Assembly (NCBI GenBank): GCA_024226335.1
Contig: JAAELY010000232.1
Span: 1 to 36,306, forward strand
DNA: 36,306 nt
Reading direction: 5' to 3'
Source of the DNA: a bacterium
Lineage (GTDB): Bacteria > Myxococcota_A > UBA9160 > SZUA-336
Part shown: positions 27,696 through 30,764 of the stretch, piece by piece
How the letters are laid out: every line of letters begins with the position of its first letter
Numbering within the stretch: the first letter of the stretch is position 1
Translations under genes and position numbers: made by a program
The notes under the pieces: model-generated
Told to the model about the DNA's origin: nothing
Database searches by the model: none
Seen by the model: the letters and a program-made list of their open reading frames with translations, nothing else

Positions 27696-28516
27696 CCCGT
27701 ATCCGCGATGCTCTCGCACAGCGCGGCCTGGCGCCGTCCAAATCGAGGGGGCAGAACTTTCTGCACTCTTCAGCGACCGCGAAGCGCATCGTGGAACTTA
27801 CAGAATTGTGCAGTGACGACGCGGCCATCGAGATCGGGCCTGGGCTGGGTCAGTTGACGCGGCCGATTGCGGAAGTGGTACGCCGGTTGATCGCGATCGA
27901 GGTCGACCGCGGTATGGTCGCGGCGCTGCGCGACGACGGTCTGCCCGCGAACACCGAGATCCGCCACGAAGACGCGCTCAAAGCCGATTTGGGCGGCATG
28001 GTGCGCGAACTGGGCTCGCCCGTGGTCCTGCTCGGGAACCTGCCGTACAACATTTCGGGACGCCTGCTCGGCGCGCTCCTGGGACCGCGCAACCCGTTCC
28101 GCCGTTGGGGCTTCATGGTGCAGGCCGAAGTCGCCGACCGACTGCTCGCGGAGCCCGGCACCCGCAATTACGGCACGCTCTCGGTCTGGACCCGGCTTTT
28201 CTCCCGGGCGCACAGGGTCATGGAACTGGGCCCGGACGACTTCGTTCCCCGGCCCAACGTGCGCTCCACCTTTCTGCTGTTCGACCCGACCGAGGAGCCC
28301 GTCGAGATCGAGAGCCTTCCCGTTCTGCGCGCGGTGGTCCGAGCTGCTTTTCAACAGCGACGCAAGACCCTGCGCAGGGCCCTGAAAGGCAAGGTCGAGG
28401 GCAGTGATGCCGGTCTGGAGCGGGTGGAAATTGACCCGCAACGGCGCGGCGAAACCCTTTCAGAACATGAATTCCTGGCCCTGGCGAACGCCATCCACCG
28501 CGCGGGAAATGATTGA
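27692..28516 (+). CDS. rsmA: 16S rRNA dimethyladenosine transferase RsmA (KsgA)
   Basis: A 274-residue methyltransferase that dimethylates two adenines near the 3' end of 16S rRNA. It shows SRGQNFLHS at the N terminus, the SAM-binding IEIGPGLGQLT, IAIEVDRGM, the catalytic NLPYNIS (NLPY motif) near residue 112, and the C-terminal FVPRPNVRST and FQQRRKTLRRAL. The ATG overlaps the tsaD stop. Open frame upstream to 27569 overlaps tsaD and has no similarity. Its stop overlaps a TTGACA hexamer that belongs to the next promoter. Confidence 0.95.
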   Translation: MTRIRDALAQRGLAPSKSRGQNFLHSSATAKRIVELTELCSDDAAIEIGPGLGQLTRPIAEVVRRLIAIEVDRGMVAALRDDGLPANTEIRHEDALKADLGGMVRELGSPVVLLGNLPYNISGRLLGALLGPRNPFRRWGFMVQAEVADRLLAEPGTRNYGTLSVWTRLFSRAHRVMELGPDDFVPRPNVRSTFLLFDPTEEPVEIESLPVLRAVVRAAFQQRRKTLRRALKGKVEGSDAGLERVEIDPQRRGETLSEHEFLALANAIHRAGND

Positions 28517-28542
28517 CAGGCCCGCCCGAACGGACTTAGCCT
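28513..28542 (+). promoter_or_regulatory. Sigma-70 type promoter for the panBCD leader
   Basis: A perfect TTGACA (28513-28518) overlaps the rsmA stop codon. After 18 bases comes TAGCCT (28537-28542), which keeps the three most conserved -10 bases; the hexamer one base earlier gives 17-base spacing but a poorer match. Transcription should begin near 28549, 215 bases before panB. Confidence 0.55.
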
Positions 28543-28548
28543 CTCGGT

Positions 28549-28721
28549 AACAACAGTCCGCATCGAAAAAGCCCAGAAGCCTGGATCCCCGAAGGGACCG
28601 GGACCGAAGGCGCAGAATCGCTGCGGATGGCCGTGAGCCTTCCCCCCAAGGATCGCCCTCGACCGTCCTCAACGGCTTGCAACATCGTGGAGCGCCTTCC
28701 GCAGACGGAGGCGCTTTTTTT
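28549..28721 (+). promoter_or_regulatory. Structured panB leader RNA, candidate attenuator (possible pan motif)
   Basis: The 173 bases between the promoter and the intrinsic terminator fold readily. A 9-10-bp hairpin at 28580-28602 has a single bulged A and a CGAA loop, and a 5-bp hairpin lies at 28611-28625. Two upstream segments can pair with the terminator's left arm or loop instead: AAGGCGC (28607-28613) with GCGCCTT (28692-28698), and CTGCGGA (28621-28627) with TCCGCAG (28698-28704). Either would act as an antiterminator. A conserved pan-motif RNA with bulged adenosines is known upstream of panB in Deltaproteobacteria and Firmicutes, which makes that the leading candidate. I cannot confirm its consensus by eye. 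A small independent RNA is the alternative. Confidence 0.5.
28691..28721 (+). terminator. Intrinsic terminator upstream of panB
   Basis: A stem of ten pairs (AGCGCCT-CCG with CGG-AGGCGCT, one bulged T, loop CAGA) is followed by seven T. This is the clearest intrinsic terminator in the window. It lies 43 bases before the panB ATG and after a strong promoter, so it either ends a small RNA or controls read-through into panBCD. Confidence 0.85.
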
Positions 28722-28763
28722 GTTGCGGGCATTCCCGCGCAGAGCGCGGGGAGGGAGGGCGGC

Positions 28764-29567
28764 ATGAAAGAGACTCGAACTACGGTTCCCGGACTCGCGC
28801 GGATGAAGCGCGCCGGTGAGAGGATCACGATGCTGACCGCGTACGACTACGCGTTCGCGCGGATTCTCGACCGGGCCGGCATCGACGTACTTCTGGTCGG
28901 CGATTCACTCGCCAATGTGGTCCAGGGCAATGACACGACTCTGCCCGTGACCCTGGACGAAATGATCTACCACACGCGCCTGGTGGCCCGCGCCGCAAAC
29001 TGCGCCCTGGTCGTGGGCGATCTGCCCTTCGGCAGCTACCACGGAAGCATCGACGACACCGTCAACAACGCCGTCCGCATGATGAAGGAGGGCGGGGCCC
29101 ATTGCGTGAAGCTCGAAGGCGGCGAGCGCGTGGCCGAGCGCATCGCAGCGATCACGCGCATGGAAATCCCGGTCATGGCGCACATCGGCCTCACCCCGCA
29201 GTCGGTCCACAATATGGGCGGGTATCGGGTTCAGGGGCGCGGTGACGACGGACGCGAGCAATTGCTGCGCGACGCGCGTGCGGTCCAGGCCGCCGGGGCC
29301 TTCGCCGTCGTGCTCGAATGCGTTCCTGCGAAGCTGGCCGCCGAGCTGACCGCCGAACTGGAGATTCCGACGATCGGCATCGGCGCTGGCGTGCACTGCG
29401 ACGGTCAGGTGCTGGTGATGCACGATCTGCTCGGTCTGGGCGAGGGCGCCCCCGCCAAGTTCGTGCGCCAGTACGTCGATCTCGGAGCGATCGTGACCCG
29501 CGCGGCCGAGATGTTCGCCGAAGAGGTTCGCCTGCAGAAGTACCCGGAAGATCATGAGTCGTACTGA
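28764..29567 (+). CDS. panB: 3-methyl-2-oxobutanoate hydroxymethyltransferase PanB
   Basis: A 267-residue TIM-barrel enzyme that adds a hydroxymethyl group to 2-oxoisovalerate to form ketopantoate, the first committed step to pantothenate and coenzyme A. Conserved parts are MLTAYDYAFARILDRAG, LLVGDSLANVVQGNDTTLPVT with the magnesium-binding aspartate, GDLPFGSY, VKLEGG, MAHIGLTPQSVH and TIGIGAG. The usual QGHDST appears as QGNDTT. The ATG at 28764 follows GGGAGGG by about six bases. It overlaps panC by 14 bases. Confidence 0.96.
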   Translation: MKETRTTVPGLARMKRAGERITMLTAYDYAFARILDRAGIDVLLVGDSLANVVQGNDTTLPVTLDEMIYHTRLVARAANCALVVGDLPFGSYHGSIDDTVNNAVRMMKEGGAHCVKLEGGERVAERIAAITRMEIPVMAHIGLTPQSVHNMGGYRVQGRGDDGREQLLRDARAVQAAGAFAVVLECVPAKLAAELTAELEIPTIGIGAGVHCDGQVLVMHDLLGLGEGAPAKFVRQYVDLGAIVTRAAEMFAEEVRLQKYPEDHESY

Positions 29568-30420
29568 ACCCAGAATCATCCGCGCGGTATGGGAACTGCA
29601 GCAGTGGTCGGAGCGCATGCGCTGCGCGGGCAAGCGCATCGCGTTGGTGCCGACGATGGGCAGCTTGCACCTGGGGCACCTCTCCCTGTTGCGCATGGCT
29701 CAACATCACGCGGATCGAACCATCGTCAGTATCTTCGTCAATCCCACACAGTTCGGACCCAACGAGGATTTCGATAGCTACCCACGCGACCTGGAAGCCG
29801 ACCTCGAGCAGGTGCGCAAGGTCGGTGCCGACGTGGTTTTTGCGCCCGAGCCCAACGAACTGTATCCGGCCGGCGACGCGACCTGGGTCACGGTGGATCG
29901 GCTGACACAGGGCCTGTGTGGACGCTCTCGCCCCGGGCACTTCCGCGGTGTGGCCACCGTCGTGGCGCGGCTGTTCCAGGCGGCTCGTCCGCACGTCGCG
30001 ATTTTCGGTGAAAAGGACTACCAGCAACTGGCGGTGATCCGGCGCATGGCCCGGGACCTGCTCTTCGACACCGAAATCGTAGGGGCTCCGACCGTGCGCG
30101 AACCCGACGGGCTCGCCATGAGTTCGCGCAATCGCTACCTGAGCGACGACGCGCGACTCCAGGCCAGGGCGCTCAACATCGCGCTTCACGAAGCTCGGCA
30201 GCACGTCCGCGCCGGTGAGCGCGACGTGCGCTTCATCGCCGAAGCCACACGCCGGCGCATCGCGAAAGAACCGCTGGCAGAACTCGACTATGTCGAGATC
30301 TGCGATCCCGAAACCCTGGCTCCTCTCGATCGGATCGGGCGGCGAGCCATTCTGGCGGTCGCGGCGAGCTTCGAAGGCGCCCGACTCATTGACAACACTC
30401 TCCTGGAGGCAGACGGATGA
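29554..30420 (+). CDS. panC: Pantothenate synthetase PanC
   Basis: A 288-residue ligase that joins pantoate to beta-alanine using ATP. The nucleotide-binding [10 protein letters not shown] near residues 33-42, [44 protein letters not shown] and the KMSKS-like MSSRNRYL are in the canonical order. The start lies inside the end of panB in another frame, and the stop overlaps the panD ATG (ATGA). Together with panB and panD it completes the pathway apart from ketopantoate reductase (panE or ilvC), which is not in the window. Confidence 0.96.
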
Positions 30421-30764
30421 TCCGGACCATTCTCAAGTCGAAACTTCACCGAGCTACGGTCACGGACGCGAACCTCGAATACGAGGGTTCCATCACGATC
30501 GATACCGCGCTCATGGATGCGGCCGACCTTCTGCCCAACGAGAAGGTCGACATCTACGACTGCACCAACGGTGCGCGTCTGGCCACCTACGTGATTCCGG
30601 GCGAGCGGGGCAGTGGCGTGATTGGCATCAACGGCGCAGCAGCGCATCTGGTCAAGCCTGGTGATCACGTCATCATCGCCAGCTACGTCCAGATGGAGAC
30701 GCAAGAAGCACGCGCCTACGATCCCCTCATCTGCTTCGTCGACGCTCAGAACACCCTCCGCTAG
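30417..30764 (+). CDS. panD: Aspartate 1-decarboxylase PanD
   Basis: A 115-residue proenzyme that makes beta-alanine from aspartate. The self-cleavage site Gly-Ser is at YEGSIT (residues 24-25), which generates the pyruvoyl cofactor. [11 protein letters not shown] at the N terminus, [12 protein letters not shown] and the tyrosine in IIASY are family-typical. This is the PanM-independent or -dependent classical form; which one cannot be said. The ATG overlaps the panC stop. Confidence 0.96.

Follow-up and report, generated by a model that had tools for sequence, protein, structure and literature searches.

A one-hairpin variant of the pan motif RNA as a likely transcription attenuator upstream of panBCD in a Myxococcota genome

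Introduction

Does the gap in front of the pantothenate genes of this genome encode a regulatory RNA, and if so, to which family does it belong and how might it switch? In the 36,306-nt stretch of DNA analysed here (the window), the gene order is tsaD, rsmA, a 250-nt gap, panB, panC, panD, a DUF502 gene and smpB. An earlier reading of the sequence alone (the original prediction) had described the gap as an attenuator-like leader and guessed that it might be a pan-motif RNA. According to the main text of its 2010 description, the pan motif is a stem with two bulged adenosines that precedes pantothenate genes in three phyla, in most cases as a tandem pair, and a dimeric protein was suggested to bind it (PMC2864571). 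RNA-seq studies of Paenibacillus riograndensis and Bacillus methanolicus also report it in the leaders of panB operons (PMC5670726, PMC4342826). In the literature searched, we found no paper that assigns it an effector.

A promoter, a leader and a terminator precede panBCD

The order of elements in the gap is promoter, leader and terminator, followed by panBCD (28764-30764; Table 1). A TTGACA promoter, a leader, a terminator with seven T and panB, in this order, had been predicted, and all of them are in place. The promoter overlaps the rsmA stop codon, and the transcription start would lie near 28549. Although a generic promoter scan of the window missed this site, boxes of the type TTGACA-N18-TAGNCT lie 60-72 nt upstream of the hairpin in seven of the eight leaders of the window's family. 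No promoter was found in the window between the terminator and panB. The downstream genes are panB, panC and panD by Pfam, which is the gene context of the pan motif. A 46-codon open frame (28627-28767), unconserved in the family, spans the terminator, and its end overlaps the start codon of panB.

Table 1. Positions in the window of the proposed regulatory elements and of the genes downstream
Feature	Position	Strand	Basis
Promoter: TTGACA (28513-28518), 18-nt spacer, TAGCCT (28537-28542)	28513-28542	+	sequence
P1 5′ strand, TCCGCA; pairs with 28622-28627	28557-28562	+	pairing; relatives
P0-like 5′ strand, GCC; pairs with GGC at 28609-28611, would sequester the antiterminator strand	28571-28573	+	class-wide P0 covariation
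pan hairpin, type H2: G.CCUGG.A.UCCC(CGAA)GGGA.CCGGG.A.C	28579-28604	+	Rfam; class model; covariation
Switching strand GAAGGCGC, hairpin 3′ flank; can form the antiterminator or be captured by P0	28606-28613	+	covariation; Rfam flank
P1 3′ strand, TGCGGA; overlaps the second 7-mer of the original prediction	28622-28627	+	pairing
Intrinsic terminator: 10-bp stem, one bulged U, CAGA loop, seven T	28691-28721	+	sequence; relatives
Antiterminator partner GCGCCTTC, also the terminator 5′ arm	28692-28699	+	pairing; covariation
panB, ketopantoate hydroxymethyltransferase	28764-29567	+	Pfam PF02548, E 2.6e-115
panC, pantoate-beta-alanine ligase	29554-30420	+	Pfam PF02569, E 4.7e-105
panD, aspartate decarboxylase	30417-30764	+	Pfam PF02261, E 3.7e-50

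The leader carries a single pan hairpin

The window's hairpin has two bulged A on opposite strands, at 28585 and 28603, both of which are conserved in the class; the bulged A of the original prediction is thus present, but as one of two. An Rfam search at the gathering cut-off gave no match in the window. At a relaxed threshold, the best match was to the pan model RF01749, positions 62-86 of which align with the hairpin with both bulged As matched. The covariance-model search put forward as a check on the pan-motif guess therefore returns the expected alignment, but at 18.8 bits, below the cut-off of 36.2, a curation threshold rather than a biological feature. The score falls short because RF01749 is a two-hairpin model. 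The 3′ flank of the hairpin, CGAAGG, also fits the Rfam consensus flank aGAaGG. Matches to Yar_3, PhotoRC-I, ffh and snoRNA families at permissive E-values were set aside as sub-threshold noise.

A covariance model built from relatives (class model R1) scores the window hairpin at 40.5 bits (E 9.3e-7), and this is its sole match in the 5.75-Mb genome. Neither the window's panB leader nor the rest of its family has the second hairpin type, H1, that would complete a tandem. Because the published description says that "most" pan hairpins occur in tandem, a single hairpin does not exclude membership. The original interpretation is largely right, with the correction that the window's leader is a one-hairpin variant of the pan motif RNA lying below the Rfam cut-off.

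Pan hairpins lie upstream of panB across the class

We identified pan-type hairpins in all 53 panB leaders examined in the class. Most of these leaders hold two, H1 (consensus A.GRGGN.A.YCGC-loop-GCGR.NYYYC.A.T) and H2 (G.CTYGG.A.TCC-loop-GGA.CCGAG.A.C), spaced 47-144 nt apart. H2 closely precedes panB in 51 leaders, and the two exceptions are those of G025 (H1 alone) and G035 (clear H1). The window's family, comprising eight panB leaders, keeps H2 and lacks H1. The leader of G025 (L062) is the reverse of this H2-only variant, with just an H1-type hairpin about 77 to 50 nt before the panB match.

We also scanned the leaders mechanically for any hairpin, whatever its sequence, in which both strands bulge an A at a distance of five pairs. 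Such a hairpin turned up in 47 of the 53 leaders, whereas shuffled leaders gave 1.2 on average. The pairing also covaries: six of the nine H2 pairs show changes on both sides, and the covariation score of H1 is 0.455 versus 0.213. Little in the 26-nt hairpin is invariant in sequence besides the bulged As and the pairs near them. Together, the RF01749 alignment with both bulged As, the position of H2 and this clear covariation bear out the pan-motif guess. In H1, the two "highly conserved" bulges are not both fixed, since the 5′ bulged base is C rather than A in some hairpins (GAGGGGTCTCGC...; leaders of G030, G032, G043, G020, G041, G059 and others).

None of 60 related genomes passes the Rfam pan cut-off, even though most of them have both hairpins; among the Rfam pan matches listed for them, most lie a few hundred nucleotides upstream of panB. 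Rfam's pan model, in other words, misses the motif throughout a Myxococcota class. In most of 91 class genomes, the class covariance models find a single strong match. The weaker matches that were fetched fall mostly inside coding frames and indicate no other regulated genes. One of these, antisense in a murJ-like gene, was rejected as a regulon member because it falls in a coding frame, and a weak match in G088 is another panB leader. G061 has H1 a second time, at the end of a contig (L146, G061:C8:57-89), probably in another panB leader from a mixed bin.

The 3′ flank of the hairpin pairs with the terminator arm

Between promoter and gene lies a terminator, and an alternative helix shares its 5′ arm, the arrangement that defines an attenuator. 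The terminator stem pairs 28691-28697 with 28709-28715 and 28699-28701 with 28706-28708, the T-run occupying 28715-28721; many relatives have T-run terminators at the equivalent relative place. The hairpin's 3′ flank, GAAGGCGC (28606-28613), is complementary over 8 bp to GCGCCTTC (28692-28699). Two 7-mer complementarities had been predicted here, with different outcomes. That between 28607-28613 and 28692-28698 is exact, extends to the 8 bp just given, is conserved and is strongly supported by comparison. That between 28621-28627 and 28698-28704 is likewise exact but was not seen in the relatives' leaders, and it seems incidental, a consequence of the sequence of the P1 5′ strand (TCCGCA) recurring in the terminator loop.

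Taken by itself, the window is weak evidence: the leader's fold energy is ordinary (z -0.4 and -1.05), and an 8-nt complement to the terminator arm and loop, found in 3.8% of dinucleotide shuffles, is alone only mildly unlikely. The case therefore rests on comparison. The strand after H2 reads GAAGGCG in most of the window's family and mostly GGGGGCG or GGGGGTG elsewhere, and it can pair with a downstream arm in 40 leaders, usually with the 5′ arm of a terminator (CGCCTTC, CGCCTCC or CGCCCCC). Double changes occur in five of the seven pairs of this antiterminator helix, and 96% of its cells are paired, a percentage that is inflated because the arm segments were picked by eye with complementarity in view; the double changes are less affected and sounder. 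Pairings include GGGGGCG/CGCCTCC and GAAGGCG/CGCCTTC, and the telling compensatory cases are those of G059 (GGAGAGT with GCTCTCC) and G040 (GGTGG with CCACC).

For H2 and the antiterminator jointly, 97.9% of cells are paired, and 11 pairs show double changes versus 4.0 in shuffles (0/500), so the covariation that had been named as a check is found among the relatives' leaders. No slid register of the alignment comes close. We dropped a null for the antiterminator in which the G-rich flank was shuffled, since composition itself drives pairing and makes such a shuffle uninformative, and relied on covariation counts and swap tests instead. The antiterminator is in the same register in L073, an Rfam-certified pan RNA (38.0 bits) of an unclassified deltaproteobacterium in which GGAAGGC pairs with GCCTTTC of a terminator, and in two Desulfuromonadales leaders (L100, L111). 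Within the window's family, no T-run follows the hairpin in G004, G007 and G009, and other downstream arrangements are seen in G005, G006, G008 and G010.

Minimum-energy folding of the full leader favours the terminator state over the antiterminator state by 7.3 kcal/mol, so folding alone predicts a default OFF, which does not settle the sign of the effector. With the polymerase at 28706-28708, the free fold and the antiterminator fold lie within 0.3 kcal/mol of each other.

A second helix competes for the flank

Class-wide, the flank has a further partner, a segment before H2, in most cases at a distance of 4-11 nt, with which it forms a helix that we call P0 (for example CGCCC/GGGCG, CACCC/GGGTG, CTGCCC/GGGCGG and CGCTC/GAGCG). 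P0 and the antiterminator use a common strand and are mutually exclusive. In a swap test, exchanging flanks between leaders gave poorer pairing than the native flanks in all 500 trials, and across families p = 4e-6. In the window's own family, P0 amounts to 3 bp and is not statistically better than with swapped flanks; here the outer stem P1 may take its place. An outer stem like P1 is readable in G009, G007 and G005 and, in changed form, in G010, and its support across relatives is moderate because the sequences are few. The covariation of both the flank/terminator-arm pairing and, class-wide, of the helix competing with it supports the predicted attenuator.

Proposed mechanism and alternative explanations

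We think it likely that a pan-motif cis-regulatory RNA, in a one-hairpin variant, controls panBCD by transcription attenuation. Transcription would begin just after the TTGACA/TAGCCT promoter, and the hairpin with its two opposite bulged adenosines would be recognized by an effector, for which a protein is a likelier candidate than a small molecule. When free, the flank GAAGGCGC would pair with the emerging 5′ arm of the terminator, blocking the terminator so that panBCD is read; when held at the base of the hairpin (through GCC/GGC and P1), it would leave the terminator to form and transcription to stop before panB. Because a free flank would mean ON and a captured flank OFF in every arrangement, effector binding is proposed to repress: the effector, which may report pantothenate or CoA status, would presumably stabilize capture of the flank at the hairpin base, giving an OFF state when bound. 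This provides a working model for the pan motif, in which the flank strand has two alternative partners, the terminator and the base of the hairpin.

The form of this explanation that names an effector type has an operon enzyme (e.g. PanB) or a dedicated protein bind the hairpin and repress this operon, and we give it an even chance. A single target operon is found per genome, and the tandem hairpins of most relatives suggest a multimeric protein, in line with the main text of the 2010 paper (PMC2864571); against this, the window's family works with a single hairpin, and the inter-hairpin spacing elsewhere varies from 47 to 144 nt. It is less probable, though conceivable, that the hairpin is instead a small-molecule aptamer, a riboswitch that responds to pantoate, pantothenate, phosphopantetheine or CoA without the help of a protein. 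Three-strand switches with interchangeable terminator and ribosome-binding-site outputs are typical of riboswitches, and within the class control is found for panB only. Set against these points, what is conserved is a hairpin of 26 nt, in which little is invariant beyond the bulged As and nearby pairs, the discoverers thought the motif suggestive of protein binding, as their main text has it (PMC2864571), and a 2022 review names CoA as a coenzyme without a known riboswitch (PMC9971707). A still more speculative version makes the one-hairpin leader a minimal, self-sufficient sensor with interchangeable outputs that directly binds CoA or a metabolite of the pantothenate pathway; if true, such a sensor would fill the missing CoA/pantothenate riboswitch class.

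Explanations that dispense with the switch fare much worse. An ordinary constitutive terminator after tsaD-rsmA, followed by panB and with complementarities by chance, would suit the ordinary fold energy and the frequency of the 8-nt complement in shuffles, but the promoter precedes the terminator with none found after it, and the comparative data, in which hairpin and antiterminator are kept with compensatory changes, contradict it; we consider it very improbable. Equally improbable is a free small RNA gene independent of panB, as the promoter-to-terminator unit of ~170 nt might suggest, given that the class-specific hairpin stands immediately before panB and, in three leaders, abuts the start of the gene without a terminator. 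Leader-peptide attenuation as in amino-acid operons, to which the 46-codon frame would lend itself, is the least probable of all: there is no run of regulatory codons, and we rejected it because no matching, conserved peptide was found in the family's seven other leaders.

Relation to known systems

The pan motif RF01749 (Weinberg et al. 2010, PMC2864571), as its main text presents it, shares with the window's leader the two opposite bulged As and the position upstream of panB, panC or panD, and the window's hairpin sequence and GAAGG 3′ flank agree with the model. In contrast to the usual tandem pair, the window has one hairpin, which scores below the Rfam cut-off and is enclosed by the outer P1 stem. 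The antiterminator, P0 and terminator resolved here are absent from the pan passage of that main text. Transcription-attenuating riboswitches and protein-binding attenuators, such as the PyrR binding site, likewise use an exclusive antiterminator and terminator with a common strand, and the class-wide pan leaders resemble them in adding a third helix that competes for that strand; here, however, the recognition element is a single 26-nt hairpin.

As far as we have checked, the one-hairpin variant, the covarying antiterminator and P0, the ribosome-binding-site variants described below and the gap in Rfam's coverage of the class are new, though parts of the pan platform may already have been noted in the supplement of the 2010 paper, whose main text is the basis of this comparison (PMC2864571). 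As the one-hairpin family shows, evolution can keep a lone pan hairpin, which gives pull-down tests with ligands or proteins a small, defined RNA to work with.

Other outputs of the flank in relatives

Three leaders have a hairpin that directly adjoins the panB start, and no terminator. The flank in G022 (L051) and G033 (L042), both of which lack a terminator, is the apparent panB ribosome-binding site (GGAGG or AGAGG), and in G152 (L170 740-775), from another class of the phylum, a single hairpin is followed by GGAGG and the panB start. These sequences point to an apparent translational output of the pan RNA, with the flank as the putative ribosome-binding site. The leaders of G005 and G008 (L009 and L007) have a downstream hairpin instead of a terminator (GCGTCTCC...GGAGACGC and TCTCCTCTCTC...GGGAGAGAGA), which seems to cover the panB ribosome-binding site.
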